From a virus, in IMG/VR virus record IMGVR_UViG_3300032053_000312, positions 1-31,987 of that record: DNA of 31,987 bases. One strand, given 5' to 3'. Shown here in pieces: positions 1 to 31,987 of the stretch. The notes beneath the pieces are model-generated. The model was not told the origin of the DNA. It made no database searches and was given only the letters and a program-made list of their open reading frames with translations. Position 1 is the first letter of the stretch, and each line of letters opens with the position of its first letter. Both the position numbers and the translations under genes were made by a program.

Positions 1-1
1 C

Positions 2-448
2 TTGAAATCAGACTTGTTCACAGATAATAAGCCTATGAGCCTGTCTGTCAAAGATTGGATTATTAGGAAGCTGGCTCCCAAGATGCTTATTAGTGAGAAG
101 ACTATTGAGGCTGTTATTAATTATCAGTTTCAGGAGGCCAACCAGGCGCTAACAAAACATAAGAGCTTAGAGATCAGTGGGTTTGGGAAGTTTTTCTTTA
201 ATGAAGGGAAGGCAGTAAAGCAGATGGAGAAATACGAGAGTCAGAAAGCCTTGTTCACAAAGAAGCTAGAGGACGTTAGCTTAACAGAACAGAAGAGGAA
301 GTCTTACGAGCTTAAGCTTCAGATAGCTTTGGATGGTATAAGAGATTTAAAACCAAGAATGTATGCTTTCACAAATTTACGAGGGGTGGAGGAACAACCT
401 AATCCCCCCAGACAAGTTGAAGACAGCGATATTAGAGACGAGCAGTAA
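2..448 (+). CDS. HU/IHF-like DNA-binding protein, 5' end uncertain
   Basis: The predicted protein has an N-terminal helical region (KDWIIRKLAPKM onward) followed by ISGFGKFFF. The GFG-F signature marks the beta turn leading into the DNA-binding arms of HU/IHF proteins. After it comes a lysine/glutamate-rich helical tail instead of the usual arm. Family knowledge: crAss-like phages carry two IHF-subunit-like genes in the structural block, and a second GFG-F protein lies at 17776. Inference: a nucleoid-like or virion-associated DNA-binding protein. The open frame begins with TTG at the window edge, so the true start may lie upstream. The first ATG inside is at 35. The 3' end overlaps the next gene by 86 bases in another frame. 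Confidence 0.65.
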   Translation: MKSDLFTDNKPMSLSVKDWIIRKLAPKMLISEKTIEAVINYQFQEANQALTKHKSLEISGFGKFFFNEGKAVKQMEKYESQKALFTKKLEDVSLTEQKRKSYELKLQIALDGIRDLKPRMYAFTNLRGVEEQPNPPRQVEDSDIRDEQ

Positions 449-6831: not shown

Positions 6832-6889
6832 AGTAATTTATATTAATGCTATATTATATACGAAAATGGTGTATACAGATGCATAACTC

Positions 6890-15625: not shown

Positions 15626-15684
15626 AACTCTGTTTTTTGGTTTTACAGAGTTCTCCCTGGGGTTTCTACCCTGGGGAGTTTTTT
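15626..15684 (+). terminator. Tandem-hairpin terminator
   Basis: Hairpin 1 is AACTCTGT/ACAGAGTT (15626-15633 with 15645-15652). Hairpin 2 is CTCCCTGGGGT/ACCCTGGGGAG (15653-15663 with 15668-15678, two G-U pairs, loop TTCT), followed at once by six T. It is the strongest terminator in the window and marks the end of the first structural transcription unit. Confidence 0.85.
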
Positions 15685-15686
15685 AT

Positions 15687-15705
15687 TTATAACTAAGTTA
15701 GTTAG
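15687..15705. promoter_or_regulatory. Candidate operator (dyad element A)
   Basis: TTATAACTAAGTTAGTTAG contains the dyad TAACT-A-AGTTA (15690-15700). Its reverse complement matches the element at 30859-30877 at 17 of 19 positions. It lies 27 bases upstream of the candidate -33 box. Confidence 0.5.
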
Positions 15706-15732
15706 AATGGATAACCAGAAAGGTTAAAATAA

Positions 15733-15765
15733 TTTGGAAAATATCAAAAAACCTTTGTACCTTTA
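15733..15765 (+). promoter_or_regulatory. Candidate Bacteroidota-type promoter of the second structural unit
   Basis: TTTG at 15733-15736 and TACCTTTA at 15758-15765 are separated by 21 bases, fitting TTTG / TAnnTTTG with one mismatch. It sits between the strong terminator and the metallophosphoesterase ATG at 15794, in an A-rich stretch. Confidence 0.55.
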
Positions 15766-15793
15766 GGGCAATTTTAATTTAAAAAAGTTGCAA

Positions 15794-17044
15794 ATGCCTG
15801 AAAATCAATCTCTTCTGCAACAATTGGAGAAAATGCTCCATTGGAAAAAGAGCAAAAAGTTCTATGCAGACAAACTAAACATCACAGAGAATGAGGTGGA
15901 TGAATTGATCAAAGAGCTTCGAGGGTCACAAGAAGCACAAGAAGATGCGGAAGTTGGAAATTACATTGGAGAACTTGAAGATCACGTAATAAGGTTTTTT
16001 GAAGACGTTTATAAAGGAACAGGTGAGGTGGTCTTCAATAGCGAAGAGAAAATCAAAACTCTAGATGAGTTAATTGATAAGTGCAATATTGACACAGAGA
16101 AATGGGAAATAACTAAATACATTCAGAACTATTGGGGCAATAGTGATAAACCTTATTACCAAGTGAAAGCTTGGTTGGGTAAGAAGAAGAATGAGCAAGT
16201 GTTTCAAGATAGTTTCATATCTTTCTTAGAAAACTATCAACCAATGTCTCCAGAAGTAATGGCTCCTAAGTATGAGAAAAGCAAGAAAGATGCTTGCCTA
16301 ATCATCAACAAACAGGATTCCCATTTAAACAAGCTGGACATAGGGGGAGAGAATGATATAGACCAACGCTTTGGTGATTTCATCCATAGGGTGGAAATAA
16401 TTCTAGACCAAGCCTCTATATCTAACAATCTCACAGACATCAAATACATCATTGGTTCTGATGAGTTTAACAGTGAGTTTACCAATACAACTACAAAAGG
16501 TACTCCTCAACAAAACATTCTTTCATATCACGATTCTTTTCATGCAATATGTGATCATGAGGTGAGTGTGATAAACCTGCTCCTTCAGAAAGGAGGGGAT
16601 GTAGATGTTGTGTTTGTATCTGGTAATCATGATGAATATGTAGGATGGCATTTAGCCAGTTGGTTACAAACCTACTTTAGAAATGAAGAGCGTGTATTCT
16701 TTGACATCTCTCCAAGGTATAGAAAGTATGTAAGCTATGGTACATCAGCATTAATGTTTAACCACGGAGATGCTCTAAAACCTGCAAAGCTTGCTGGCTT
16801 GTTCCCTATGGAATTTAAGAACGGATGGTCAGAACACGATAATTTCTACATATTCACTGGTGACAAACACCATGAAATGAGTCTTGATTTTAATGGTATT
16901 AAATTCTATCAACTACCTGCATTCTCTACAGCCAAGAGTTCTTGGGATGATAAGAATGGATACACCATGACCAAGGGTGAGGTGACAGGATTCTTGATAG
17001 ATCTCCAAGATGGAATAACAAACATATTCAAACAGTATTTATAA
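15794..17044 (+). CDS. Calcineurin-like metallophosphoesterase
   Basis: A 416-residue protein (ATG at 15794; an in-frame TTG at 15788 is less likely). Residues 1-60 form a helix-turn-helix-like segment (KLNITENEVDELIKEL). The catalytic region follows the family order: D175-x-H177 in KQDSHLNK, GSDEFN (D223, N226), GNHDEY (N278, H279, D280), NHGD (H324) and GDKHHE (H359/H360). These are the two-metal site residues, although the last motif lacks the usual GHxH first His. The substrate is unknown; nucleic acid or nucleotide phosphoester hydrolysis is the family activity. It is the first gene of a transcription unit and couples to the ring gene by TAATG, so it may be made with the tail apparatus. 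Co-packaging is possible but unproven. Confidence 0.8.
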   Translation: MPENQSLLQQLEKMLHWKKSKKFYADKLNITENEVDELIKELRGSQEAQEDAEVGNYIGELEDHVIRFFEDVYKGTGEVVFNSEEKIKTLDELIDKCNIDTEKWEITKYIQNYWGNSDKPYYQVKAWLGKKKNEQVFQDSFISFLENYQPMSPEVMAPKYEKSKKDACLIINKQDSHLNKLDIGGENDIDQRFGDFIHRVEIILDQASISNNLTDIKYIIGSDEFNSEFTNTTTKGTPQQNILSYHDSFHAICDHEVSVINLLLQKGGDVDVVFVSGNHDEYVGWHLASWLQTYFRNEERVFFDISPRYRKYVSYGTSALMFNHGDALKPAKLAGLFPMEFKNGWSEHDNFYIFTGDKHHEMSLDFNGIKFYQLPAFSTAKSSWDDKNGYTMTKGEVTGFLIDLQDGITNIFKQYL

Positions 17045-17772
17045 TGTCAACTTTTAGGAAGCTAGTTTCAGATGCGCGCGCTATGCACAAGTTGCTCTCC
17101 ACGGACAACTTGATCACGGATAGAGCTGTCATGTCTGAAATTAGAAACAATGCCTTTCTCTTAATTAAGCGTGAGACTAATCTGAGAAAGTTATGGGCAA
17201 CCGATACAGTTTTTACCACCATCCCCTGCTTGGAGACGGTGGAAGTTCCTATTTCTGAATGTTGTGATTATGTTGATCCTTGCACAGTGGCTAGAACAAG
17301 ATTCAAGCTACCTAGGATTACAGAGGGTAATTATCAATATGTCATTCAGGGTGTTTATTCAATTAATGCCATGAGTGGTCAGGGAAAGAAACTTAAGGAA
17401 ATAACCATCAACCGATACGTGAACTTGCTCAAGCTTCCTATAATTAAGAAAGAGGAATACTATTGGATTTCTAACGGATATCTGTATGTGAACAATCCAC
17501 TCTTAAAAGCAATAAGACTTGTTGCTCTTTTTGAGGAAGATATTCCAAATGAGATAATGTATCCAGAATGTGGATGCGGAACTCCTAGTTACACACCAGA
17601 ACAACTGTGTGTAAATCCTTTAGATAGAGAATCTCCAGTTCCTGGCTATTTAGAAAAGCAGGTGTTGGAGCTCACTTCTCAGAAGCTTCTATCTACGTAT
17701 TTCAAATTGAAGACAGACATCACAAGTGATGGAGTTGATGGTCAAGCACCTAACGCTCCAAACTTGAGATAA
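17044..17772 (+). CDS. crAss-like tail ring (connector) protein
   Basis: A 242-residue protein with an N-terminal helix pair (FRKLVSDARAMHKLLSTDN, LLIKRETNLRKLW) and a cysteine-bearing strand region (TIPCLETVEVP, ECCDYVDPC), then a beta-rich body. The phrase LPRITEGNYQYVIQGVYSI fits the conserved core of a crAss-like structural protein that lies between the fibre and muzzle genes and is placed in the tail ring stack below the portal. Its neighbours, the IHF-like protein, second ring protein and muzzle, are in the order expected for that module. Which of the two ring positions it occupies cannot be told from sequence alone. Confidence 0.65.
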   Translation: MSTFRKLVSDARAMHKLLSTDNLITDRAVMSEIRNNAFLLIKRETNLRKLWATDTVFTTIPCLETVEVPISECCDYVDPCTVARTRFKLPRITEGNYQYVIQGVYSINAMSGQGKKLKEITINRYVNLLKLPIIKKEEYYWISNGYLYVNNPLLKAIRLVALFEEDIPNEIMYPECGCGTPSYTPEQLCVNPLDRESPVPGYLEKQVLELTSQKLLSTYFKLKTDITSDGVDGQAPNAPNLR

Positions 17773-17775
17773 AAT

Positions 17776-18252
17776 ATGAGAGTAAAGATAGATTGGAGAA
17801 GCGCCAGCAAAGAAAACTACAGCAGTTTCTGTAAGAAACATCCTTCCATAAAGCTCACCTTTGACCAATGGAGAAACATCGTTTATTCTTTTAACGATGC
17901 ATTTAAAGAATATATTCTTGAGACAGGAGAGAAAGCAAAGCTGCCTTTTGGTTTTGGTGAGTTTGCCATAAACAAGAAAAAGCGTAAGAGGGTAAAAGAC
18001 ATTCATGGAAAAGAGTTTGTCAACCTTCCTATTGACTGGAAAAAGACAAAGGAGAAAGGTAAACGTATTTACAATTTTAACTTTCACACAGAGGGCTTCT
18101 TCTTTGGATGGGTGTGGTTTAAGTCAACAGCTAGATTCAGACAATCACCGTTGTGGTATTTTAAACCTTCCAGAAACACGTCTAGACTTCTCTCTCACTA
18201 TATAGGGGCTAACGATAAATATCAACATCTCTATCACGAATGGAAAAAGTAA
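17776..18252 (+). CDS. IHF/HU-like conserved phage protein
   Basis: A 158-residue basic protein. The N-terminal half is helical (FDQWRNIVYSFNDAFKEYI) followed by LPFGFGEFAINKKKRKR, which carries the HU/IHF-type GFG-F turn and a basic arm-like stretch. The C-terminal half is rich in Trp/Phe/Arg (FFFGWVWFKS, SPLWYFKPSRNTSR) and is not part of canonical HU. crAss-like genomes have two such IHF-subunit-like genes, one within the tail block. This one sits between two ring protein genes with 3- and 5-base gaps. The aromatic C-terminus suggests a structural adaptation, perhaps binding DNA or protein in the tail connector (inference). Confidence 0.6.
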   Translation: MRVKIDWRSASKENYSSFCKKHPSIKLTFDQWRNIVYSFNDAFKEYILETGEKAKLPFGFGEFAINKKKRKRVKDIHGKEFVNLPIDWKKTKEKGKRIYNFNFHTEGFFFGWVWFKSTARFRQSPLWYFKPSRNTSRLLSHYIGANDKYQHLYHEWKK

Positions 18253-18257
18253 AATAG

Positions 18258-19229
18258 ATGTCATACTATTACAAATATAATTTCATCAGCCCTGAGCCTG
18301 TATATGCTACAGTTAAGGAGGAATTCAAAAGCTATTTTGATACAGGGGCAGTTGATGATTTGCTGTTCCCTACCTATCTAGACAAGTGTCTAAGAAAGTT
18401 GGGTAGAACCACTTATGTGATTTCTCAGGAAATCCTACACATCAATGATTATCAAGCTAGACTTCCAGACAACTTCTTTGCTGTAAGAGAGGCTTGGATG
18501 TGTACAGCTGTAAATGGTTTTCCTTATCAACAGGCTAACTCATTCTACTCTCAAGCTGCTAGTTCTACAACAATTCAGGTGAGTCCTGTAATTGTGTGTG
18601 GTAATCCTTGTGAAGAAGGTAATTGTGCTCAGGAGTTTTGTCCTAAATGCATGCCTAACTTAGTGCAGGCTGTGTACAAGACAAACAACGAAGCAGCTGT
18701 TACATATCGGAAGGAATATCTTCTCAAGCCTGGTAATATCTCCGCACAGGGTAACTGTGGTGTAGACTATACCAACAATTGGGAATTCTATCAACAGGCA
18801 CCTCCTTTTAATCAATTCACTCCTGGTTCCTCTTCGTATGACTCATTTGATGTAAGAGACAATAAGTTTGTTACCAATTTCCGTAATGGTGTTGTGCATC
18901 TGCTATTTTATGCTACAGAATATGATGCTGGTGGAAATCAGTTGATTCCTGACAACTATCGTATTAGGGAATATGTTGAAGCTTTTATAAAGTATAAAGT
19001 GATAGAAACGCTTACCAATCAAGTGAATGATGAGACGTATAATCAGCTAGAAAGGAAGATGGTGAACTACAAACAGATGTCTGATGAGGCATTCATCATG
19101 GCTGATATTGAGGTTAAGAAACAAGATCCTTGGACTAAGCAACGTAGGATTAAGAATGACTTGAACAGATTTAACATGTATGAACTCCCCAATCGTAGCA
19201 ATAGCTATGGTCGGAGACGTAATAATTAA
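18258..19229 (+). CDS. Second tail ring/tubular protein
   Basis: A 323-residue protein starting MSYYYKYNFISPEP, with an N-terminal helical region (YLDKCLRKLG) typical of P22 gp4/T7 gp11-like head-tail adaptors. An inserted cysteine cluster (C114, C118, C123, C128, C131) may bind a metal. The C-terminus is helical and basic (MVNYKQMSDEAF, then RRIKNDLNRFNMYELP). It lies directly before the muzzle gene with a 5-base gap, as in crAss-like phages, where the second ring protein joins the ring stack to the muzzle. The assignment is from synteny and adaptor-like architecture. Confidence 0.62.
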   Translation: MSYYYKYNFISPEPVYATVKEEFKSYFDTGAVDDLLFPTYLDKCLRKLGRTTYVISQEILHINDYQARLPDNFFAVREAWMCTAVNGFPYQQANSFYSQAASSTTIQVSPVIVCGNPCEEGNCAQEFCPKCMPNLVQAVYKTNNEAAVTYRKEYLLKPGNISAQGNCGVDYTNNWEFYQQAPPFNQFTPGSSSYDSFDVRDNKFVTNFRNGVVHLLFYATEYDAGGNQLIPDNYRIREYVEAFIKYKVIETLTNQVNDETYNQLERKMVNYKQMSDEAFIMADIEVKKQDPWTKQRRIKNDLNRFNMYELPNRSNSYGRRRNN

Positions 19230-19234
19230 TACTA

Positions 19235-22200
19235 ATGGCTGAACAGGAACAAGGTAATATTAGGCAGGAGTATAATAATGCTACCACAGGTCTTAACATG
19301 GACCAAACCCCTAACCAAATTGCGAAGGGGAAATTAACGTATGCATTAAATGCTGCTGTTGAAAACTACGATGCTAATTCTGTAAACTATCAGAATGAGC
19401 CAGGGAACGAACTATGTGTTACGTTCCCTTCTGGCTTTGTGCTTATAGGTAACCACTTCATCCAAGAGAAGAACAAACATATATTCTTTATCACCAATCC
19501 TGATACAGGAGCTAGTCAGATTGGATATATGGAGAACAACGATTGTCTATATCGTGTTGTTGTAAATGCTCCTTGCCTCAACTTCAATACTAACTATCCC
19601 ATCCATAAAGTGGCGCATAAGATAACTAATTGCACCACAGAGATTTATTGGACAGATGGATTTAATCCTAGAAGATATTTAGATATTGATAATATTCCAA
19701 AAGTTCTAAAATCTGGAACTCCGTTCTGTGATCCAGAATATACAGATGACCTAGACTGTAATCAACTTAAGATTCAACCTAATTTTAACATTCCTCAACT
19801 GGAGGTAATTGATGTTACTAGCACAGGTAACCTGATTGCTGGTACATATCAGTTTTCTGCGCAATACTCTGATGCTCAGGGTAATCCTTACACGTCCTAC
19901 TATTCTGTTACCAATCCAACACCTATTGCTGATAAGTTCATTACATCAGTGAACTTCAACTATCCTGTTGGGAAATCTATCATCCTCAATATAAGTAATC
20001 TTGAGGACACGGGTCTTTACCAGTATTTCAACTTAGCGGTGATTAAGACAATCAATGACATCACTTCTGTTGAGCTGGTGGGTACATATTACATTGATGC
20101 TCTTCAAAAGGAAATCCCATACACTGGTCAGAACGTAACACAAATCAGACTGACCATCAATGATATATTTGAGAAGTTCCCTTATTACGATATTGCTCAA
20201 GACCTTACAACAGCACAAGATGTTTTGATATGGGACAATCTTATATCTATTGATCGTATTAACTACCAAAGCATTGCTAATCAAATTCCTCTGTTATGGG
20301 AAAGCTGGAGAATTCCTGCTGACCAAAACTATTCAGATGAGTTGAATGCCACCAACCTCAGAGGTTATTTGAGAGATGAGGTGTATGCTTTTGAGATAGT
20401 GTTCTTGCTTAAGAATGGTAAGCAGACAGATGGGTTTCATATTCCTGGTAGAATCAAAGGTCCTACAGAGAACCTACAACCTGATGTACCAGATACCAAC
20501 CCAGACTTTATAGGCGTTCCTGATTACACATCTGGAGGAATAGGATATAGCTCATATTGGAAAATCTACAATACAGGATTTGTAATTGGTACAAGTCCTG
20601 GATATTCTCCAGCTCCTGAATACAGAGGTCCTTATCAGTATGGTGAGTTTGGTTATTGGCAATCAACAGACACCTACCCATGTAACAAAGATGTATGGGG
20701 TGATTTAGCTGGTCAGCCCATCAGGCACCACAAGTTCCCTGACATCAATGTAAGTCCTGCTTACGAATCTAAGATATTCTTAGGTCCTAGTGCGATGGTT
20801 CAGGGCAATGATGCTGTGTTCCCTATTGGTGTACAAATAGATGTACAACTAGTGAGCACACTCATCCAGACATCCACTCTTACATCAGAGCAGAAAGATG
20901 ATATTGTAGCATTCAAAATCATCCGTGCTGATCGTGGTACAAACAAATCTATTGTTGCTAAGGGCATCCTTAGGAATGTAAATACGTATGAGAGAGAAGA
21001 GGAAACCTACTACTATCCTAACTACCCATACAATGATATTAACGCAGATCCGTTTCTTAATACAACTAACAATGCCTACTCACAAATCTGTGATGGGTAT
21101 AGTATATTCATAGACACACTTGCTGTAGATCCTACTGGTGGACCTTCTTTTGCTGAGGTGGAATATACTGATTGCAATACGAACAAAGTAACAAAGAAGA
21201 AATACTTTGCAATTGGTCAATATCCACTTTGCTCAATAGGTAAGCCTACAATCCTTGGTCCTGCAACAGGAAGGGTCGGGCTTTCTACATATGAGATATG
21301 GACAGCTCAGGTTTGTAATCCTGGTCCTCTTTCATTTGCCAGAGGTGGTAGAATTGAATGGAATGACATTTATACAGGTATCACTACACAATGGGTAAAT
21401 GGATGGCCTACCTCTCCAGTGTATACATTATATGTAGTTCCTGGCACAGGTGGTCCTGTACAGATTGAAGGTCCTGGTGAAATCTGTTTTACTGGTCCAA
21501 CACTTGTCACAGGTGAAAACTGTAAAGCTGAGAATCCTCAACCTGGATTTACAGAAAAATACAGACAGATATTTAACTCTCCTGAAACTTCTTTTGGGCA
21601 GCCATTTTTAGGTGGTGTTCTGAAGCTTGAGAGTGTAATGTTTGGTAGAGGTAGAGGTCACTTTGTTGAGGTGAGAGATAACGCTAAGTATAAACTCTTA
21701 ACAGAGGAAGCTCAGCGTGATGCTCTTGAAAGTGCTGAAGAACTAGGTGTTGTAACCACACCATTCAATGCCACTGCTATGTTTACAGCATATCAGGCGT
21801 ATTTAACCATATATGTAAATGGTATTACAAGGAAGAACTATGCCTACTCTTTCAACTCTATAGGAGATTATAACTATGGTGTAGGGGTTCCTGATGATCA
21901 AGGGATTAAGCAACGTAACCTTGACATCGCTAGATATTTGATTCCTGGTGTACAGAATGTTGGTGATATATACAACATCAACAACTTCCAAAGAGAATCA
22001 TCTGTCTATCTAAGAACTGACCTAGATAGACCAGGCCTTCCCTTCCCAGACCAAAGTCCTAACATGTTGTCTGCAGGAAGTCCAATAGTTACAGACATAT
22101 CAAGATTCACTATATCAGAAAGAAGCAAGTGTCAAGCTCCTGCTAAGGAAGAAGACATGTCTGTTGTTTCTTATTACGCATCTCTTAAGAATGTATTTGT

Positions 22201-24406
22201 TAATCAATACGGACAAATCTATTCTTACAGCACGGTGGACACTGGTTTTCAAGTGCTTGTGGATGATCTTACTCCCGACATACAAACAGTTTTTGGTGGT
22301 GATACGTTCATCAGCAGGTTTGCATTCAAGACCAAGCTTCCATTCTTTATTGACAACCGTGTGAATGCTCCTGATGATAGTGATATATTCTATGATGAGA
22401 TAGGTAACATAGCCTATCCAAAATACTGGCACTCAGCACGTTCTATTCTTAGAGACTACACTATTACAAGTGTAGGTGTGTTATCAAACATTATTTCCTA
22501 CAAGGCTCACAACTTTGACTGTCCTAATAGTCAGTTTGTGGCTCCTTTACAACCTAAGGATAGCAATCCTGGAAGAACTTTCTACGATGGATACTTCTAT
22601 CTGTTTGCATATGGTATTCCTAATTTCTATTGTGAGAGCTCTTATAACGTAGACTTACGTCAAGCTTTTAACAATAGAGAAGGTGACTTCTGGCCTCATG
22701 TGAGCTCAGGTATTCCTGATGACTGGGTGCAGCAAAGTTATGTTCCTATTGTTCAGGATAACACCTACTTCTATAATGTCACCTATTCTAAGCAGAACAG
22801 AGAGAATACATTTACAAATCTACCTATTGACTGGGATACACCTTGCTTCACTTATTATCCTTTCAGAGCTATCTATTCTGATTCTCAGAACATTGACTCT
22901 GATAATAGGGTAAATAGCTGGTTAATTTACAGAGCCATCTCTTATTATGACTTCCCTCAGAACTATGGAAATCTTGTATCTCTAGATGGAATTCAGAACA
23001 AGGCAGTGCTTGCTCGTTTTGAGAACAAGACACTCATGTACAACAACCTCCTTACGATAGATACAAGCAATCCTCAGGCAGCGTATGTTGGCAATCCTCA
23101 ATTCTTCAGATCAGCTCCTCCGATTGATTTTGCAGAAACTGATTTGGGATATGTAGGAACCCAAAACAAGATGTTGTTAAAGATTCCACAAGGACAAGTC
23201 TCTGTGGATGCTAAACGTGGTCAGGTGTTTTTGATCTCTGGTACACAGGCTGTAGACCTATCATGGTTTGGTTCAGGACTTAATAGGTTCTTTACAGACC
23301 ACCTAGCATTTGAAATCCTGCGTTACTTCCCAGATGTACCTACAGATAACCACTTCACAGGAATTGGTCTGCATGGTGTATTTGATAGCAAGTATGACAG
23401 GGTGCTTATCACTAAGCTTGACTATGTTCCAAAGAGCAAAGATGTTAAATATGATGCTGTTAATGGAGAGTTTTATGTTGAAAAGACATACCAACAAATC
23501 GCTTATAGCACCACCACTAGTACAACCACTTCTGCTGGCACTACTACTAGTACAACAACATCATCTGGATTAACCACTACAACTACCACCACCACCGCTC
23601 TTAAACCAATCATTATACGTGAGAGAGTGTATCTAACAGATGAAGTCTATTTCTGTAATAAGAGTTGGACAGTGTCTTTCAACTTTAATACTAAGAGTTG
23701 GATAAGCTTCCATAGCTACATCCCTAACTGGTACATTGGTGAGAACAACTTCTTCTATTCTGGCATAAATGGATGTTGTGATGACTTTGAAGTGATAGCT
23801 GGTGTTCCTGGACCTGTTCCTACAACCACCACTACATCTAGTACATCTACCACTTCTACAAGTAGTACAACTACAACCACTACAACATTGAACTGTAATC
23901 TTGTAGGAACTGTTACAGAAACAAGTTGTACATTAGCAGGAACAGCTGTGGTAACAGTACCACCACCAATACCTCCTTGTGAAAGACCTGAAGATTTGAT
24001 ACAAGATGTGTTCTTTACAGGATATAACATTACATCTCCTCCAAGCAGTGTTGTTTCTACAGGAAGTCAATTGGACGCATGTAACGCTGTTGCCTATCTG
24101 AATACATTTGGTGAATCATATATAAATGTTGTTCCTACATTCCTCACTATTGAATATCAAGGACTCTATCTTGGATCTAGAGTGTTTGTAACTAATGGTA
24201 CAACTGATTGTACAACAATACCAGATGGTTGGTATTTTACAGGAGCTTCTCAGTCTGTTGACACAGTATTCCAGGTGATAGGTGGATTGATTGTATTTAT
24301 TACTAGTTGTACAACCACAACAACAAGCACCAGTAGTAGTACAACTACAACGTCATCTACTAGCACATCGTCTACAACAACTACCACTACAACCATCGCC
24401 CCTTAA
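19235..24406 (+). CDS. Muzzle / tail stabilisation protein with poly-Thr insertions
   Basis: A 1723-residue protein. The N-terminus (GLNMDQTPNQIAKGKLTYAL) and following beta-propeller-like repeats (YWTDGFNPRRYLDI; LEDTGLYQYFNLAVIKTI) fit the crAss-like stabilisation/muzzle family, which closes the short tail and holds ejected proteins. Around residues 1465-1510 a WTVSFNFNTKSWISFHSYIPNW segment begins, with poly-Thr linkers just before it (about 1425-1455), after it (about 1529-1552) and at the C-terminus (about 1692-1723, TTTTTTTIAP). Between the last two sits a Cys-bearing beta domain. Muzzle proteins usually continue into a further C-terminal region; here that material seems to be encoded separately at 25076. 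Expected location is the tail tip. Confidence 0.7.
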   Translation: MAEQEQGNIRQEYNNATTGLNMDQTPNQIAKGKLTYALNAAVENYDANSVNYQNEPGNELCVTFPSGFVLIGNHFIQEKNKHIFFITNPDTGASQIGYMENNDCLYRVVVNAPCLNFNTNYPIHKVAHKITNCTTEIYWTDGFNPRRYLDIDNIPKVLKSGTPFCDPEYTDDLDCNQLKIQPNFNIPQLEVIDVTSTGNLIAGTYQFSAQYSDAQGNPYTSYYSVTNPTPIADKFITSVNFNYPVGKSIILNISNLEDTGLYQYFNLAVIKTINDITSVELVGTYYIDALQKEIPYTGQNVTQIRLTINDIFEKFPYYDIAQDLTTAQDVLIWDNLISIDRINYQSIANQIPLLWESWRIPADQNYSDELNATNLRGYLRDEVYAFEIVFLLKNGKQTDGFHIPGRIKGPTENLQPDVPDTNPDFIGVPDYTSGGIGYSSYWKIYNTGFVIGTSPGYSPAPEYRGPYQYGEFGYWQSTDTYPCNKDVWGDLAGQPIRHHKFPDINVSPAYESKIFLGPSAMVQGNDAVFPIGVQIDVQLVSTLIQTSTLTSEQKDDIVAFKIIRADRGTNKSIVAKGILRNVNTYEREEETYYYPNYPYNDINADPFLNTTNNAYSQICDGYSIFIDTLAVDPTGGPSFAEVEYTDCNTNKVTKKKYFAIGQYPLCSIGKPTILGPATGRVGLSTYEIWTAQVCNPGPLSFARGGRIEWNDIYTGITTQWVNGWPTSPVYTLYVVPGTGGPVQIEGPGEICFTGPTLVTGENCKAENPQPGFTEKYRQIFNSPETSFGQPFLGGVLKLESVMFGRGRGHFVEVRDNAKYKLLTEEAQRDALESAEELGVVTTPFNATAMFTAYQAYLTIYVNGITRKNYAYSFNSIGDYNYGVGVPDDQGIKQRNLDIARYLIPGVQNVGDIYNINNFQRESSVYLRTDLDRPGLPFPDQSPNMLSAGSPIVTDISRFTISERSKCQAPAKEEDMSVVSYYASLKNVFVNQYGQIYSYSTVDTGFQVLVDDLTPDIQTVFGGDTFISRFAFKTKLPFFIDNRVNAPDDSDIFYDEIGNIAYPKYWHSARSILRDYTITSVGVLSNIISYKAHNFDCPNSQFVAPLQPKDSNPGRTFYDGYFYLFAYGIPNFYCESSYNVDLRQAFNNREGDFWPHVSSGIPDDWVQQSYVPIVQDNTYFYNVTYSKQNRENTFTNLPIDWDTPCFTYYPFRAIYSDSQNIDSDNRVNSWLIYRAISYYDFPQNYGNLVSLDGIQNKAVLARFENKTLMYNNLLTIDTSNPQAAYVGNPQFFRSAPPIDFAETDLGYVGTQNKMLLKIPQGQVSVDAKRGQVFLISGTQAVDLSWFGSGLNRFFTDHLAFEILRYFPDVPTDNHFTGIGLHGVFDSKYDRVLITKLDYVPKSKDVKYDAVNGEFYVEKTYQQIAYSTTTSTTTSAGTTTSTTTSSGLTTTTTTTTALKPIIIRERVYLTDEVYFCNKSWTVSFNFNTKSWISFHSYIPNWYIGENNFFYSGINGCCDDFEVIAGVPGPVPTTTTTSSTSTTSTSSTTTTTTTLNCNLVGTVTETSCTLAGTAVVTVPPPIPPCERPEDLIQDVFFTGYNITSPPSSVVSTGSQLDACNAVAYLNTFGESYINVVPTFLTIEYQGLYLGSRVFVTNGTTDCTTIPDGWYFTGASQSVDTVFQVIGGLIVFITSCTTTTTSTSSSTTTTSSTSTSSTTTTTTTIAP
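23507..23598 (+). repeat. Poly-threonine tract 1 in the muzzle gene
   Basis: ACN-codon run interrupted by SAG and SSGL. It contains ACTAGTACAAC twice (23516-23526, 23546-23556). Confidence 0.8.
23819..23890 (+). repeat. Poly-threonine tract 2 in the muzzle gene
   Basis: The tract encodes TTTTTSSTSTTSTSSTTTTT and a short further run, separating the conserved muzzle segment from a cysteine-bearing beta domain. Confidence 0.8.
24310..24402 (+). repeat. Poly-threonine tract 3 (C-terminal) in the muzzle gene
   Basis: The tract encodes a Thr/Ser-only tail ending TTTTTTTIAP just before the stop codon. Confidence 0.8.
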
Positions 24407-24425
24407 CTTTTAAATACTATATATA

Positions 24426-25064
24426 ATGACAGTATTAATAACATTAACAACAGCTGGAACAGATACAGGTCCTTTTGATCTTTACTCAAACGTAGATGGT
24501 TATGTTTCAGCATTTGAAATAGGGGTGTCTAAGGCAGCTCTTGTAGCTGGTTATTCTTCTGCGCTTGTACCTAATGGTGCAACAATTATAAGAATAAAGT
24601 CTACAGGCACTTGTGTAAACTACATAGATGTTAACGTGGTTACTACCACTACAACTACAACTACAGGTACACCAACCACTACTACTACAACTACAAGCGC
24701 ACCACCGCCTACTACAACAACCACAACAAGTCTTCTTGGAGATACGTTCTACATAACAAACAGTAGTACAAATAGTACAATAACTAACATTACAGTTTCA
24801 GCAGCTTCTTTCTACTTCCTTAATGTAGGAACACTACCTGTAGGGCCTAGTCAAACTGCTTCGGGTACACAATCTTCATTAACTTCAGCAAATATTGATG
24901 TAGATGTTACTCAGTCTCTTGGTAATGCATGTCTTAAACTTTATGTAAATAATATAGTTGTTTCACAATTAAACGTAGGTTCAACAGGGATTTATACCTT
25001 CACTACAATAACTTTTGGAACAAGTGATTTGGTAGAGTTTGAGATTGTAGACGGAACTTGCTAA
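24426..25064 (+). CDS. Modular Thr-rich tail protein with a domain shared with the next gene
   Basis: A 212-residue protein. Residues 1-70 form a small beta domain (VLITLTTAGTDTGPFDLY, IGVSKAALVAGY, IRIKSTGTC). This is clearly homologous in pattern to the first 75 residues of the next protein: both share LT-x2-G-x3-GPF, GVSK-x2-L-x2-G and STG-x-C. Then follow poly-Thr linkers (about 72-102) and a second beta domain (FYITNSSTNSTITNITV onward, with one Cys near the end). No muzzle core is present. It looks like a free-standing accessory or decoration unit derived from the muzzle/fibre modules. It starts 20 bases after the muzzle stop and ends 11 bases before the next ATG. Confidence 0.65.
   Translation: MTVLITLTTAGTDTGPFDLYSNVDGYVSAFEIGVSKAALVAGYSSALVPNGATIIRIKSTGTCVNYIDVNVVTTTTTTTTGTPTTTTTTTSAPPPTTTTTTSLLGDTFYITNSSTNSTITNITVSAASFYFLNVGTLPVGPSQTASGTQSSLTSANIDVDVTQSLGNACLKLYVNNIVVSQLNVGSTGIYTFTTITFGTSDLVEFEIVDGTC
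24640..24730 (+). repeat. Poly-threonine tract in the accessory tail protein
   Basis: The tract encodes TTTTTTTTGTPTTTTTTTS, then APPPTTTTTTS, linking two beta domains. Confidence 0.8.
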
Positions 25065-25075
25065 AATAAATAAAC

Positions 25076-25942
25076 ATGGCTAAGACAATCATCATAAAAT
25101 TAACTAGCTCAGGACCCACAGCGGGACCCTTTACAATCATTGACCAACTTGGAAACATTCTAGCAACGGGTGTTTCCAAGGAGGAACTGATTTCTGGGGT
25201 GAGTTATGTTGTAGATGATGCTGTTGATGTCATCACTGTAGAATCCACAGGTAGGTGTAAGAACAAGAAAAACTTCCCTGTCACTACAGTTAATCCTGTG
25301 AGTTTAGCAGCCACCACGTATAACCAAATATCAACTGCTTGTATCTGGAGGCACCTGAAGAATCCAGTGGTGTATAACTACTTCTATGGAAACATAGAAC
25401 CATACATCATCGAGTATCCTTTTGCCTATCAGTATCAGGATGAAATCCTTCAGAGTGTACAGGATTATACCAAGGCATACAGATACTTCTCTGATCCAGA
25501 TGGTATATCAGATGACAACCGTAAAATAGAAACCGACAATGCTTGGTTTAATAAGGCTGTCCTTTACAATGGTCAACAGAGTACAGGTGTGCTTGAGTTG
25601 GTTCCTAAACCAATTAACAACCTAAAGGACTACTTGAAGTATCCTTTGTATAACGCTGAGAGTAAGACAATTACATTCACTAAGAGTGATAACTTCTACC
25701 AGTATAATACATTCTGGTCATTGGTAAAAGACAAGCAACTACCTCTCTTCGTGCGCACGTGCGAGTCTCTGTCTTTGGATAAGGTGGTAAATCAGGTGAA
25801 TATGGACTATGGAAAAAGATCCTTTAAGAAGGAACCTCTACGTGCTAAGGAATTAAAGGTGCGACACATCCTAGACAATCGCTATGATGCACACCTAGTA
25901 TCACAGTTTATTTACACACCTGCTCAAATCTCTTACAAATAA
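25076..25942 (+). CDS. Separate muzzle-C-terminus-like protein
   Basis: A 288-residue protein. Residues 1-75 repeat the beta domain of the previous gene (IIIKLTSSGPTAGPFTII, GVSKEELISG, VESTGRC). Residues 85-288 are different: CIWRHLKNPVVYNYFYGN, IEYPFAYQYQDEILQSVQDY, an LELVPKPINNLKDYL stretch and a basic end with AKELKVRHILDNRYDAHLVS. This part reads like the C-terminal region of large Bacteroidota-phage tail/stabilisation proteins (surface-localised, then an Arg-rich final sheet). I infer that the muzzle is divided over several ORFs here. The start and stop are clean, with a one-base overlap to the next ATG, so this is not a sequencing frameshift. Confidence 0.6.
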   Translation: MAKTIIIKLTSSGPTAGPFTIIDQLGNILATGVSKEELISGVSYVVDDAVDVITVESTGRCKNKKNFPVTTVNPVSLAATTYNQISTACIWRHLKNPVVYNYFYGNIEPYIIEYPFAYQYQDEILQSVQDYTKAYRYFSDPDGISDDNRKIETDNAWFNKAVLYNGQQSTGVLELVPKPINNLKDYLKYPLYNAESKTITFTKSDNFYQYNTFWSLVKDKQLPLFVRTCESLSLDKVVNQVNMDYGKRSFKKEPLRAKELKVRHILDNRYDAHLVSQFIYTPAQISYK

Positions 25943-27576
25943 TGGCTAACAACATTAACTGTACATGTGGACATTCTTGGAGCAAGACAAGCTCTAGCAA
26001 GAAAGATATGAACGTGTGTCATATATGTGGAAAGGATAACACTATGAAAAATGGTGGTTGGTTAAATAAGTTTGAGCAAGGAGGGATGGTCTTAAAACAA
26101 AAGACTCAAGATAATTATGGTAAGAAAGCTAACCCAAACAATCCTGATGTATCACTTCCTCCAGGATTCAAGGGATTGGCATACAACACCAAAGGACGTA
26201 ATTATAGTCCTGCATGGGGTGGCCAGTTTGCTATGGGAGGATCTCTTCCTGGTGCTGTAGGATTCACGTACGCACGTACAGCAGGAGCTGCTCCTAGTAA
26301 TGGTCCTTATGCTAAGAAGACAAAGGCTAGTGCACAGAATGGAATGGAGATGAAATTCTACCAAGAAGGACTAGACTTCAAACCTAAGACCATTAGTCAA
26401 GATGGCAGTGAGATACCTATAGATTCCATGGGCTATTGGAACCCTGAGAATGTAGGCAATCCTGTAATCATCCCATCCAATGAAATCACTATGGAGGGAG
26501 TGGATGTTCCATTGATTGGCATTTCTGATACAGGAGACACACAAATGATGTATCCTGGAGAAGACTATACATTTGATGGAGAATCAGTTACAGAATACCC
26601 TGTAATGCAAAAAGGTGGTTCAGTTCCTACAACAGCAGACAGTCTTAAGTTATTTAATGCTCAAATAGCTTTGAATAATTTTTATGATAAAGAAGTAAAA
26701 GCTGGGAGACTTAAGAAAGATGTATTTAACGGAGCATATGATACAAATCTAAATGAATTAAAAGATGAAAATCTTAGATTCTATCGTGATGCAATTTATA
26801 CTAGACCTCTTGTGGGTGGTTCATATGACAAAATGTATAACAAATATTTTAACCTTACACCTGAACAGGTTAGAGTATTAGAATTAAAAGGGTTAGCTCA
26901 AACTAAAGCAGGCAATGCTAATCAACAGTATTATAGGGATCTTATTACACCATTGCAAAATTTAGGTGCTCCTTTTGCAATGATAGATAGTCGTATAAAA
27001 CCTCAACGAATGATAGATTATGATGCAATTGAGGGTACAAAAAATTATCCTGGTGGAAGTGTTTCAGTGTATGACTATGACCCATTAGCAATTAAGCCAT
27101 ATAACATGAGAACTCCCAAAGAAAGAGAAGAGTGGAAGAAAAAATATGGCAAACCAAAACCAAAACCTACACAAAAGACCACTAAACCACAACCAAAGGT
27201 AGAACCTAAAAAACTAGAACCTATCAAGAGGGAAGAACCCATTAAAAAAGTAGAACAACCCAAACCTGTTGAGAGGAAACAAAATATATACGAAGGTTCT
27301 CCTGTATATTCTCCAGGAGCAGGAATAGGGGCAGGAAGCACTCTTGTAGGATTTGCTAATCAGAAAGGAGACACAACATATGTCAAACCTGAAGACTACG
27401 AAAGGTTTGCTGTTCCTAAATACGGAAAAGAATTTATTGAAAGCAAAATGGAGAGACAGAGAAATGGTGGTGTGAATAATGCTGATGCTCAACCTATTAA
27501 AAAGTTAGACCAATCACTTAACTTTACAAACTATAACAAACCAACCAAGGGTGGCTGGTTAGATAAATACAACTGA
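25942..27576 (+). CDS. Zinc-ribbon protein with repeated GG motifs (candidate cargo)
   Basis: A 544-residue protein. Residues 7-29 hold a zinc ribbon (CTC at 7-9, CHIC at 26-29). At 38-44 comes GGWLNKF, and the extreme C-terminus repeats this as GGWLDKY (537-543). Between them are other doublets (EQGGMV, AMGGSL, QKGGSV, RNGGVN), an AQNG site at about 131, and a PGAVGFTYAR stretch sharing GFTYAR with the capsid protein. Residues about 230-390 form a helical domain in AT-rich DNA, followed by a Lys/Pro-rich linker (about 395-445). No catalytic motif is recognised. It is probably a virion protein, perhaps ejected cargo, since it follows the muzzle. The GG pattern is of unknown meaning. Confidence 0.6.
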   Translation: MANNINCTCGHSWSKTSSSKKDMNVCHICGKDNTMKNGGWLNKFEQGGMVLKQKTQDNYGKKANPNNPDVSLPPGFKGLAYNTKGRNYSPAWGGQFAMGGSLPGAVGFTYARTAGAAPSNGPYAKKTKASAQNGMEMKFYQEGLDFKPKTISQDGSEIPIDSMGYWNPENVGNPVIIPSNEITMEGVDVPLIGISDTGDTQMMYPGEDYTFDGESVTEYPVMQKGGSVPTTADSLKLFNAQIALNNFYDKEVKAGRLKKDVFNGAYDTNLNELKDENLRFYRDAIYTRPLVGGSYDKMYNKYFNLTPEQVRVLELKGLAQTKAGNANQQYYRDLITPLQNLGAPFAMIDSRIKPQRMIDYDAIEGTKNYPGGSVSVYDYDPLAIKPYNMRTPKEREEWKKKYGKPKPKPTQKTTKPQPKVEPKKLEPIKREEPIKKVEQPKPVERKQNIYEGSPVYSPGAGIGAGSTLVGFANQKGDTTYVKPEDYERFAVPKYGKEFIESKMERQRNGGVNNADAQPIKKLDQSLNFTNYNKPTKGGWLDKYN

Positions 27577-27577
27577 T

Positions 27578-30500
27578 ATGAAAGCAAAAATGCTCAAAAT
27601 TGCTGGTGTTAAGTCTGAGAAGGAATTCTACAAGAAGTTTCCTAATGAGGCATCTTTTATGGCTAAACATGGTGGTGCTTTTAAGAAAGCACAAATAGGT
27701 GCTTACATTGGAGGAGAGCAAGGTGCTGGTTTCCAGCCAGTCAACTTCAAAGATGTATATGACCAAGCTGATTATGCAGTGACAGGTTCTACAGATGATC
27801 AGCGTAAAGAAGATGCCTATAGAAAGGCTGAACTTGCTGCTGCTCAAAAGCAATCTGGTGGCGGTGGTGGAGGGCTTGGCGCAATTGCTAACGTTCTTCA
27901 AAGTGAAGAACTTATGACTGCACTTGGTGGTGCTAGGAGAGGTAAGCAGATAAAGAAAGCTCAAAGTGGAATGCGTGGATTAATATCTATGCCTAATCCT
28001 GTACAAACTGCACAAGCTGATGCTGCTATAAATCAACAGTTTGCTAGTCAAAATATAGGAGGGTTTGATATAGAAGAGAAACCAGGAGGAGATGCTCTCA
28101 AACAAATATCTAAGTATGCAGGTCCTGCAGGAAAGGTTGTAGGAGGGTTTCAACAATTGAAAGAGGAAAAGAGAGCTTTGGAAAGAGCTGAACAAATGAG
28201 AGATGTGAGCGGTCTTGTAAGGAAAGCTGCTAACACACGTCCTGAAGAAACCCAACGTAGATATGTTCGTCCTGAGGATGCAACGAATACAGGAGAAGAG
28301 CTATTCCCAATATATGGTGTAGGTACAAATGTACTTGCTAGAAATGGTAAGATGGTAGGTGGAATCCCTGGTGAGATTGCTAATACATTTGCTCCTAATA
28401 CACTTTACGATGATCTTGGATATGAACCTTTGAATGATAGTGAACGTTACAAACAGTTTATGCATGGCGGTAGAATGCACAGAGCTCAAACTGGTTTAGA
28501 AATGTTTGCTGGAGCTGGTGGTGATGATGTTACTAGTCAACTGCTTACAGGAATCACTGGTGAAAACGCTGGTGGTAATCTAGGTGGAACTCTTGGTGGA
28601 ACAGTTGGTTCAGTTTTTGGACCTGTAGGAAAGCTAGTGGGTCAAACAGCTGGTCAGCTTATTGGAACAGCTCTAGACAGAAAGCCACAACAAATTAAAA
28701 AAGCTAAAGAAGCTACACAACAAAACATTAAAGCTACAGCTCTTCAATCAGGATTTCAGAGTGGACAGGCACAAAATTCATCATTCATGGAGAATGGTGG
28801 AACAACCTCGCCATACGAATGGATGAGTCATACATGGCAACCCCAAACAATCACTAAGTTTGGAGAACACAATCTTAGAGACTTGCTAAGATCTCCAAAG
28901 GATGCAGACATGCTAAGAGCTGGTGGTCACTTAAAAGAATACACTCCTCCTAGTGAAAGAGCTATGTCTACAGAAAGACCTGACTTCCAGATGGGTGGAG
29001 AACTTCAAACACACTGGGGTGGATATGCTGAGTCTATGTCTCAGAATCCATACCTACCAGATGGTGGAGAAACAATCATGTTCAGAGGTCAGTCTCATGA
29101 TGAGAGTGATGGTAAGGGCAACACAGGTATAGGTATCACCTATGGTGACAACCCTGTAGAAGTGGAAAGAGGTGAACCAGCATTGAAGTTAAAAGATGGT
29201 GGAGGTGCTCCTGGTGATAGTAGTCTTGTAGTGTTTGGCAACCTCAAGATACCTAAAGCTTATGTTCCATTGCTTGGTAAGGAAGCTGAAGGTAAGAAGT
29301 TCAAAACCTACGTAGCTGGTTTGTCTAAAAAGGAAAATAAAATCAATAAGAACATTAGCAAAGCTGTAGAAGAACTTGATGAGCTTGATGTACAAACTCC
29401 TTTTGATAAGTTGAGATTCAACTCTTTAGATCTTACAATCAATGGTGGTAGTGCTACATTAAAAGAAATTGCTGACAACAAAACTTCAGCTGCTTCTTTA
29501 CAGAACGCTATTAATGATACAGCTGAGGAGTATGGATTGGTTGCTGATGATCTTGCTAAAGGAAAAATAAAAACTGCTAAATTTGGTAAGATGATTAAAG
29601 CACAATCTGGATATACAAGTAAATATGGACTTGATCCTTGGACTGGAGATAAGACCACAGGTATTAAGAATGCATCTGCATTCACTGCAAAAGAGTGGGA
29701 TGAGATTGCTGAGCAGATTGGATTTGATAAAACAGGTAAGAAAGGAAACAAAGCTTTCCAGGAGTATCTGTTCCAAGATCCTGAACTAAAGTCAATGATT
29801 ATCAACAACCACCAACAACTATATAACTCAGATCCTACATCTACTAAGAAGAACTGGTTTGATAATAAGCTTGGTGCTGGATGGGCTGCTCCTGGATTGA
29901 AGAAGAAAGACATTCCTGAAACTCCTTCTACATTCCAAACAAGAGAGTTCAAACCTATCATTCCTGAGGTTGGTGCTCCACCTAAAAAAGATGTTCCTTC
30001 TATTGAATACAAGAGAAGTGGTTTAGTGGATGTTATTGGACAGGTGCTTCCTTACGTTCGTCCTACAGACCAAGAACAACTTGACCCTACACAGCTTATG
30101 GGTGAGATGTACGCAATGGCTACTAACCAATTGGAGCCTGTACAAGCTCAAACCCTACAGCCTCAACTTAGCGTTCCTTATGACATCTCTCTTCAGGATA
30201 TTCTGAATGAGAACAGGGCTTCCTTGAGATCACAACAAAGGCTTGTGGGATACAATCCTGCTTTACAAAGTCAACTTGGGGCACAAGAATATGCTGCTAA
30301 TCAGAGAGTGCTAGGTGAGCAATTCCGTATGAACCAGGCCATGAAGAATCAGATTTACAAAGAGAATAGGGATAAGCTTGATCAGTTTGGCTTGAAGAAT
30401 CTTGAGATTCTTGACCGTCAGTATGTTCGTCAGGCTGAAGCTAAGAGTAAAACAAAGGCTGTTGGACAGGCTGTTGTTAATTCTATTTCTGATAAAATGG

Positions 30501-30862
30501 CTAAGAATCAATTGGAAAACAGAACATTAGCTACAATGGAGAACCTGTACAACTACCGCTTTGACCCACGTTTCAGAGCTATTAACATGAATGCTCCTTT
30601 TCAGCCAGTGATTCCTACAATAGCTGGAACCAGCTCACAGAGAGTTCCTGTATTAGACCAGAACGGAAACATCCTTTACTATGAGCAAAAGGTTGGAGAT
30701 CAATCTACAGCCGTTGTATCTAGCCCTGCTACTACTCCTGGCACTCCTCAGACCTTTTTGAAGAAGAGTAATAAGGAGGAAATAGAAGGGGCAAGGAAAG
30801 GAACTTCTATTAAGAAAAAGAACCTGAACAGCTCAATTGTAAAGGCTTTAAAAAATATCTAA
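27578..30862 (+). CDS. Large Gly/Gln-rich candidate cargo (ejection) protein
   Basis: A 1094-residue protein starting one base after the previous stop. It contains repeated sites KKAQIG (about 36-41), KKAQSG (about 127-132), HRAQTG (about 301-306) and IKAQSG (about 673-678), and many GG doublets. Residues 324-367 are a glycine zipper (GGNLGGTLGGTVGSVFGPVG), suited to membrane insertion. Around 510-545 a GQSHDESDG ... NPVEVERGEP domain, and around 690-760 a helical FDKTGKKGNKAFQEYLF module, resemble recurring units of crAss-like late proteins. The C-terminal 250 residues are Gln/Arg-rich helices. The zipper and helices favour an internal protein ejected with DNA. Function is inferred, not shown. 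Confidence 0.62.
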   Translation: MKAKMLKIAGVKSEKEFYKKFPNEASFMAKHGGAFKKAQIGAYIGGEQGAGFQPVNFKDVYDQADYAVTGSTDDQRKEDAYRKAELAAAQKQSGGGGGGLGAIANVLQSEELMTALGGARRGKQIKKAQSGMRGLISMPNPVQTAQADAAINQQFASQNIGGFDIEEKPGGDALKQISKYAGPAGKVVGGFQQLKEEKRALERAEQMRDVSGLVRKAANTRPEETQRRYVRPEDATNTGEELFPIYGVGTNVLARNGKMVGGIPGEIANTFAPNTLYDDLGYEPLNDSERYKQFMHGGRMHRAQTGLEMFAGAGGDDVTSQLLTGITGENAGGNLGGTLGGTVGSVFGPVGKLVGQTAGQLIGTALDRKPQQIKKAKEATQQNIKATALQSGFQSGQAQNSSFMENGGTTSPYEWMSHTWQPQTITKFGEHNLRDLLRSPKDADMLRAGGHLKEYTPPSERAMSTERPDFQMGGELQTHWGGYAESMSQNPYLPDGGETIMFRGQSHDESDGKGNTGIGITYGDNPVEVERGEPALKLKDGGGAPGDSSLVVFGNLKIPKAYVPLLGKEAEGKKFKTYVAGLSKKENKINKNISKAVEELDELDVQTPFDKLRFNSLDLTINGGSATLKEIADNKTSAASLQNAINDTAEEYGLVADDLAKGKIKTAKFGKMIKAQSGYTSKYGLDPWTGDKTTGIKNASAFTAKEWDEIAEQIGFDKTGKKGNKAFQEYLFQDPELKSMIINNHQQLYNSDPTSTKKNWFDNKLGAGWAAPGLKKKDIPETPSTFQTREFKPIIPEVGAPPKKDVPSIEYKRSGLVDVIGQVLPYVRPTDQEQLDPTQLMGEMYAMATNQLEPVQAQTLQPQLSVPYDISLQDILNENRASLRSQQRLVGYNPALQSQLGAQEYAANQRVLGEQFRMNQAMKNQIYKENRDKLDQFGLKNLEILDRQYVRQAEAKSKTKAVGQAVVNSISDKMAKNQLENRTLATMENLYNYRFDPRFRAINMNAPFQPVIPTIAGTSSQRVPVLDQNGNILYYEQKVGDQSTAVVSSPATTPGTPQTFLKKSNKEEIEGARKGTSIKKKNLNSSIVKALKNI

Positions 30863-30877
30863 CTAACTCAGTTATAG
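30859..30877. promoter_or_regulatory. Candidate operator (dyad element B)
   Basis: CTAACTAACTCAGTTATAG includes the dyad TAACT-C-AGTTA (30864-30874) and overlaps the stop of the cargo gene. Reverse complemented, it matches element A at 15687-15705 at 17 of 19 positions. It lies about 26 bases upstream of the candidate -33 box. Confidence 0.5.
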
Positions 30878-30901
30878 CGAATTACCAAAACTCGTTATAG
30901 C
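30867..30901 (+). repeat. Direct repeat pair upstream of the last promoter
   Basis: CTCAGTTATAGC (30867-30878) and CTCGTTATAGC (30891-30901) differ by one inserted base and start 24 bases apart, about two helical turns, just before the candidate -33 box. The first copy overlaps dyad element B. Confidence 0.5.
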
Positions 30902-30902
30902 T

Positions 30903-30934
30903 CTTGGAAATTATAATTATTCATATTACATTTG
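30903..30934 (+). promoter_or_regulatory. Candidate Bacteroidota-type promoter of the last gene
   Basis: CTTG at 30903-30906 is followed after 20 bases by TACATTTG at 30927-30934, a full match to the -7 consensus TAnnTTTG. The expected start of transcription falls less than ten bases before the ATG at 30950, giving a very short leader. Confidence 0.55.
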
Positions 30935-30949
30935 CTAACTTGACATACC

Positions 30950-31987
30950 ATGGCTTCATTTACAGACATCATACCACAATTTAACCCCTATGTCCAGCAG
31001 CTTCCTGTGGAAGCTATGGTGCAGGTGGGTATGGAGAAACAGAAGCGTTACGATGATGGTATCCAAAAGATTCAAACTCAGATAGATAACATTGCTGGAC
31101 TAGACATAGCCCAAGATGCTCAACGAGTATATTTGCAATCTAAACTGAATGAACTTGGAAACAATCTAAAAACTGTAGCCGCTGGTGACTTCTCCAACTT
31201 CCAACTTGTCAACTCTGTAGGAGGTATGACTAGTCAGCTTGTGAAAGACCCTCGTATTGTTAATGCTTTGTCTTCTACAAAAGCTTACAGAAAGGGACTA
31301 GAGGATATGACTACTCTTACCAAAGAAGGAAAAGCTTCTGCTTCTAGAACATGGGAATTTAAAAAGGCAGCCAATGCTTGGTTTAATGGGGATGTTGATT
31401 CTTCATTTAGTACATTGTACAAACCTTACACCAACTACAGAAAGAACGCTGCAGAGATAGTCAAAGGACTCACTGGAGATAGCACCATCAGAGATGATGC
31501 TTTTGACGTTGATGCTAATGGTAATCTTGTAATGAAAGACGCAATGACCCGTTTAATGAATAAAGGTATTTCTCCAGAGAAAATTCAACAAGCTCTTCTT
31601 GTAGGACTTTCTCCTGATGACTGGGAACAAATATCAGTGGATGGTAGATACAATTATTCCAACACTACACCCACATCTTTCGCAGAATCATTAAATGCTT
31701 CTTATAAGGGGAAGTATGATGCCTTTGCTCAGCAAAGAACCATTCTTGAGAATGCAAAATCTTCCACATCTTCTGCTGTAGAAAAGCAAAAGATTGACCA
31801 AAAGATTGGAGAACTTACTAAGATGTTAGGTAGTGTTCAGGAAGAATACAACAGTGTTTCAAGAACTTTTGATGATGGGGATGCTGAATCTGCAAAAGCA
31901 AGATTGTTCACAGCTAACTTCATGAATGGTTTCTCCAAAGCTTTCTCATACACAGAAACTGCTCAGACTTACGAAACTAGTCCACTT
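30950..31987 (+). CDS. Putative internal virion protein, 3' end outside window
   Basis: An open frame starts at ATG 30950 and stays open for 346 codons to the window edge. The protein begins MASFTDIIPQFNPYVQQLPV and is mostly helical: a QVGMEKQKRYDDGIQKIQTQ heptad-like stretch, GLDIAQDAQRVYLQSKLNEL, then charged helices with few aromatic residues and no cysteines. The length and helical, Gln/Lys/Asp-rich make-up fit the large ejected cargo proteins that follow the muzzle in crAss-like phages. No catalytic motif is seen in the visible part. It has its own candidate promoter although it follows another cargo-like gene, implying separate timing or a higher dose. Confidence 0.65.
   Translation, partial: MASFTDIIPQFNPYVQQLPVEAMVQVGMEKQKRYDDGIQKIQTQIDNIAGLDIAQDAQRVYLQSKLNELGNNLKTVAAGDFSNFQLVNSVGGMTSQLVKDPRIVNALSSTKAYRKGLEDMTTLTKEGKASASRTWEFKKAANAWFNGDVDSSFSTLYKPYTNYRKNAAEIVKGLTGDSTIRDDAFDVDANGNLVMKDAMTRLMNKGISPEKIQQALLVGLSPDDWEQISVDGRYNYSNTTPTSFAESLNASYKGKYDAFAQQRTILENAKSSTSSAVEKQKIDQKIGELTKMLGSVQEEYNSVSRTFDDGDAESAKARLFTANFMNGFSKAFSYTETAQTYETSPL

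Follow-up and report, generated by a model that had tools for sequence, protein, structure and literature searches.

Known and proposed phage regulators at host-type promoters

The crAss-like phages rank with the most abundant known. In the literature found, mostly non-subscription papers, no late operator has been described for them. MotA of phage T4 is a winged-helix protein which, together with AsiA, acts just 5′ of host-sigma promoters through one short box located around -30. The promoters analysed here likewise carry their sites just 5′ of host-sigma elements, differing from the MotA arrangement in having two dyads with 22-bp phasing above an intact -33 box. Protein C of phage Mu, a late-gene activator (PMC4461284), offers a likeness in layout, with dyad-like operators before several late promoters through which units would come on together; the present case departs from it in host, promoter type and tandem layout. 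MarR-type regulators provide a further parallel, with dyads of ~15 bp and half-sites one helical turn apart.

It has been inferred that the late genes of crAss-like phages depend on the host polymerase for their transcription (PMC10136315, PMC8375218), and a block of terminase, portal, capsid and IHF genes together with RNA polymerases carrying a DxDxD motif has been described for the group (PMC7886860). The flavobacterial sigma-A -7 consensus is TAnnTTTG, located at -12 to -5 (PMC9723704). The stretch of DNA analysed here, 31,987 nucleotides of the viral record IMGVR_UViG_3300032053_000312 (hereafter the window), carries such a crAss-like block, with PHROG matches for terminase, portal and head proteins and a Pfam match for an IHF/HU DNA-binding protein. 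A nucleotide search found no related isolates, and a search of bacterial genomes for the host found no relative.

Architecture of promoters A and B

A sequence-only reading of the window had proposed that a 19-mer element recurs upstream of two promoters 15 kb apart. Direct inspection located TTATAACTAAGTTAGTTAG at 15687-15705 (+) and CTATAACTGAGTTAGTTAG at 30859-30877 (-), identical at 17 of 19 positions with two mismatches as had been reported; 0.06 such matches are expected in shuffles, bearing out the view that the match is unlikely by chance, and apart from a palindromic self-match the window holds no third copy at ≤3 mismatches. The element is real, only one member of a tandem pair having been recognised and the second dyad missed. 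Likewise the TAACT-N-AGTTA dyad placed at both sites exists as two exact copies of TAACTNAGTTA (15690 and 30864) in the wrong register as a unit, being the inner overlap of TAAC-N7-GTTA and falling in different registers at A and B, while the unit that aligns in promoter orientation is the 15-bp dyad TAAC-N7-GTTA. TAACT-N-AGTTA was rejected as the real unit, with a spacer of 3 weakly enriched through overlap with the true site and a spacer of 7 standing out. Copies of TAACTNAGTTA at ≤2 mismatches in the window are at background level (22 found vs 27.7 expected), so the short motif alone is uninformative.

At both promoters the full composite comprises five elements, TAAC-N7-GTTA-N7-TWAC-N7/8-GTTA-N6/7-TTGG, followed by a Bacteroidota -7 box (Table 1). 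Dyad 2 begins exactly 22 bp 3′ of the start of dyad 1 at A and B alike, such that the half-sites fall at positions 0, 11, 22 and 33/34, followed by the -33 box at 44, with about one helical turn between each. Seven bases separate the two dyads at both promoters, and 7 (A) or 6 (B) separate dyad 2 from TTGG. The distance from the centre of dyad 1 to the -7 box is 61 bases at A and 60 at B, within the 58-63 first estimated. The -7 box of B, TACATTTG, agrees with the TAnnTTTG consensus of Bacteroidota sigma-A and that of A, TACCTTTA, deviates in its last base; the TTG of the -33 element is present in both TTGG boxes, about 19-20 bp before the -7 box. By the -7 spacing rule (PMC9723704) transcripts are predicted to start near 15770 (A) and 30939 (B), which would centre the dyads near -73/-51 and -72/-49, respectively. 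A role for the dyads as RNA hairpins was set aside because they lie 5′ of the -7 box.

Table 1. Coordinates of the promoter elements, neighbouring genes and further element sites (strand left empty for the dyads; sites in relatives carry the genome label).
Feature	Position	Strand	Basis
Winged-helix candidate gene, last 8 codons and stop, cut by window start	1..27	+	LEIRLVHR and stop, agreeing with the 115-aa family C-terminus
IHF/HU-like DNA-binding protein, 5′ end cut, head operon gene 2	2..448	+	Pfam Bac_DNA_binding, E 8e-07
Intrinsic-terminator-like hairpin and T run, ends preceding unit, immediately 5′ of promoter A	15653..15686	+	Sequence
Promoter A dyad 1, TAACTAAGTTAGTTA, perfect palindrome	15690..15704		Sequence and relatives
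Promoter A dyad 2, TAACCAGAAAGGTTA	15712..15726		Sequence and relatives
Promoter A -33 box TTGG	15734..15737	+	Fixed +44 from dyad 1; alignments
Promoter A -7 box TACCTTTA	15758..15765	+	TAnnTTTG consensus, PMC9723704
Unit A first gene, metallophosphoesterase/DNA-repair-exonuclease-like	15794..17044	+	PHROG 704, E 3.7e-48
Promoter B dyad 1, TAACTAACTCAGTTA	30860..30874		Sequence and relatives
Promoter B dyad 2, TTACCAAAACTCGTTA, 8-base spacer	30882..30897		Sequence and relatives
Promoter B -33 box TTGG	30904..30907	+	Fixed +44 from dyad 1; alignments
Promoter B -7 box TACATTTG	30927..30934	+	Sequence and alignments
Unit B first gene, cut by window end	30950..31987	+	Relatives
CATAATATAGCA, further locations	G003 6877, G014 8815, G002 73157, G012 24918, G006 78179		

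Promoter A opens a metallophosphoesterase/structural/tail unit, the first gene of which starts at the ATG at 15794 (TTG 15788 in the ORF list). The terminator-like hairpin preceding this promoter is retained among relatives with both arms changed. The protein encoded 5′ of promoter A has threonine-rich C-terminal runs (window 15540-15613), a feature also of small structural paralogues encoded by relatives. Unit B consists in relatives of a gene for a ~870-aa protein followed by one for a ~4000-aa protein, the latter in a region beyond the window end. This giant protein has no PHROG match; the region carries GSDFDIDKL or GLDFDFDKM in 8/10 relatives, in keeping with the DxDxD motif of crAss-like polymerases (PMC7886860), and the DFDID motif by itself suggests that the protein may be RNA-polymerase-like. 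Both units encode virion-type proteins.

Conservation and placement in relatives

Protein-guided searches with the gene downstream of each promoter gave 80 loci per gene, many of them near-identical contigs, with 41 (A) and 56 (B) distinct upstream sequences. The composite precedes the metallophosphoesterase/tail unit in 79/80 loci, the exception (L016) retaining both dyads and having lost the core promoter. At unit B a strict match was found in 61/80 loci. In seven of the 19 misses a GIY-YIG-type homing-endonuclease gene is inserted between promoter and gene, which accounts for the failure to match, with the whole promoter intact 711-729 bp upstream in six of the seven and the contig of the other, L101, ending too early. 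In the remaining 12 misses, examined by eye, dyad 1 is retained, and either dyad 2 is degenerate or the -33 box is unlike TTGG. The inserts (L101, L124, L132, L133, L134, L136 and L147) each hold a free-standing GIY-YIG-type endonuclease gene of ~205 aa, whose position would put its expression under promoter B of the phage.

When the B sequences were aligned without motif selection, near-invariant TAA, TTA, TTA, TTA, TTG and ATTTG blocks emerged with variable bases between them, and across the alignments of relatives the -33 TTG is invariant and the -7 box nearly so. Dyad 2 is often imperfect among relatives, which counts against the reading preferred below. Paired CG/TA changes in dyad 1 of A exceed the column expectation at two positions (0.87 vs 0.76 and 0.60 vs 0.45), and those at B do not.

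The placement of the composite is nearly exclusive, with just two copies (A and B), ~15 kb apart, in most large relatives and likewise only two in the window. A position-weight scan of ten large relatives gave one strong A and one strong B match in nearly every genome, with scores of 41-72 against a reversed-sequence control maximum of 3.9, the matrix having been trained on sites that include some from the same scanned genomes; G019 has a weaker A site in which dyad 2 is degenerate. In a search at ≤1 mismatch, 26 of 29 records match the composite, mostly at two sites 13-18 kb apart, and the reversed pattern gave a single match; nine of the 29 records had already come up in another search, one of these nine being among the ten large relatives. 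An exact 16-mer scan across viral contigs was excluded from the statistics, as the matches listed include chance ones.

Rather than lying at random in coding regions, TAAC-N7-GTTA is over-represented between genes and keeps fixed distances to -33 boxes, with 32 sites in 144 kb intergenic (0.222/kb) vs 31 in 931 kb coding DNA (0.033/kb), and among the spacings of inverted half-sites compared solely N7 stands out between genes. For 480 TTG/TAnnTTTR pairs resembling promoters, the kind of site that had been suggested as a check, the strict dyads upstream end chiefly 7 bp (nine cases), 29 bp (19) or 20 bp (eight) away. The 20-bp group forms a third class, C, in which variant dyads precede a gene for a tail-type protein starting IPSRQIGW, the two dyads lying farther upstream than at A and B, a different distance that counts against the preferred reading. 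A gene for a small protein (MKFINYLVRWI...) likewise has dyads at its promoter, at G006 114901 (-) and G019 51417 (-), the latter overlapping the -7 box in a position that would repress.

The tandem dyad was absent from the scanned half of crAss001, from the scanned parts of phi17:2 and phi14:2 and from the whole genome of Lbo-JY46, the closest named relative (terminase 39% identity). Lbo-JY46 (PP438436.1; L337-L339), a Leptolyngbya phage deposited with a cyanobacterial host, has promoters that look Bacteroidota-like, e.g. TTTTG...TATCTTTG at 118518, and its host label may deserve checking; a divergent match to the winged-helix protein discussed below heads its structural block (E 0.007).

A winged-helix protein as candidate regulator

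The first gene of the head operon in relatives encodes a highly conserved 115-aa protein; the IHF-like gene comes next, with terminase and portal later. The same gene order is found in crAss001, where gp13 (annotated as a regulator) and gp14 (HU) precede terminase and portal; the sequence similarity of gp13 to the 115-aa protein is not significant (E 1.6). The 115-aa protein has weak winged-helix matches in Pfam, and its predicted structure is that of a winged helix (pLDDT 77). The first PDB match of the model in Foldseek is the activation domain of T4 MotA (1bja, E 2.2e-3, TM 0.54), with nothing below 1e-3 and MarR proteins scoring nearly as well. Pfam gave no MotA match, and the MarR_2 score, 14.1 bits, is far below the cut-off of 27, setting the protein apart from MarR-type regulators despite the similar fold. 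Other small conserved genes considered for the regulator were rejected, encoding an HNH-like endonuclease or having no family match.

In a related clade TAAC-N7-GTTA directly abuts the -33 TTTG of the winged-helix gene's own promoter, in 21/56 distinct upstream sequences vs 0.04 expected in shuffles. In the window's own clade this promoter is without the dyad and carries another element instead, which counts against the candidate. The link of the 115-aa protein to the dyads is suggestive, and the protein is the leading candidate for the dyad binder.

A second conserved element

No copy of the dyad element is present at the capsid promoter near 6890, as had been noted; a different conserved element, GCTATATTAT, is present there, upstream of the capsid-module promoter, as GCTATATTATA at 6848-6858 of the window, with equivalents in nine relatives. 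In ten relatives GCTATATTAT also precedes another virion-gene promoter, downstream of a 972/713-aa gene, and TAACTC-(T/A)TTG is common to both promoters at the -33 region. The reverse form, CATAATATAGCA, precedes the winged-helix gene in 79/79 loci (L340-L419), as does ATAATATAGC when all clades are taken together, and CATAATATAGCA is also found 5′ of the gene for a ~1138-aa protein (sites in Table 1). Its distance to the -33 box is ~30 or 40 bp in two clades, one turn apart.

These observations bear on who binds what. It is conceivable, if doubtful, that some other phage regulator binds the dyads and that the winged-helix protein binds the CATAATATAGCA element. In keeping with this, ATAATATAGC stands before the winged-helix gene in every locus and the dyad in one clade only, and the reverse element is present at the capsid promoter; against it, no better conserved DNA-binding candidate emerged from the subset of small genes tested. 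A two-branch late programme may also be tentatively suggested, in which a hitherto undescribed MotA-like winged-helix protein, the product of the first gene of the late operon, would bind the exactly phased dyads as tandem dimers and direct host polymerase to a tail/RNA-polymerase subset of the late genes, with the second element serving the capsid genes.

Mode of action

The reading that we prefer, and hold to be somewhat probable, is that the dyads are tandem operators for a dimeric, probably phage-encoded activator recruiting the host polymerase to late virion genes. Two dimers of one DNA-binding regulator would lie next to each other on one face of the helix, immediately 5′ of the sigma-A promoters of Bacteroidota type, and bring in the host RNA polymerase. 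Units A (tail/cargo) and B (RNA-polymerase-like) would in this way be switched on together, along with a tail-gene unit of variant geometry (C). The regulator would probably be encoded by the phage, with the 115-aa winged-helix protein next to IHF as candidate. The initial suggestion that one regulator coordinates the two units is well supported, with the correction that the second gene, taken to be merely the last cargo gene, opens a further unit. The dyads end at fixed distances of 7 and 29 bp before the -33 boxes, which places them on one DNA face and outside the core promoter. Activators usually sit outside the core promoter, and the obligate phased upstream position fits activation better than repression.

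Palindromic tandem sites are typical of repressors too, and at the winged-helix candidate's own promoter the dyad touches the -33 box; even so, it seems unlikely that the dyads are repressor operators silencing units A and B early in infection, since the A and B sites end 7 or 6 bp before the -33 box and the core is never covered. Less likely still, the same operators might be bound by a transcription factor of the host that the phage puts to use, the genes then following host physiology. The core promoters are host-type, in keeping with this, but the element persists at its two promoters in phages with as little as 36-40% identity between their unit B proteins, and in a related clade a phage regulator gene has the dyad at its promoter as well. 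Chance resemblance in AT-rich intergenic DNA, for which the background level of the short motif at ≤2 mismatches might speak, can be dismissed given the shuffles, the conservation in relatives and the fixed spacing to the -33 boxes.

Implications for the phage group

A phage activator at host-type promoters, as preferred here, would be of a known kind; the novelty would lie in the phased tandem arrangement of the operator, in its target genes and in the candidate protein. The composite is specific enough to flag such promoters in metagenomic contigs from the same uncultivated clade. With the operator sequences and the genes behind them defined, a candidate protein named and another element at hand for the remaining late units, the switch can be tested directly. 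Given the retention of the layout across dozens of relatives, these phages probably possess a dedicated switch that would turn on the tail and polymerase-like genes together.
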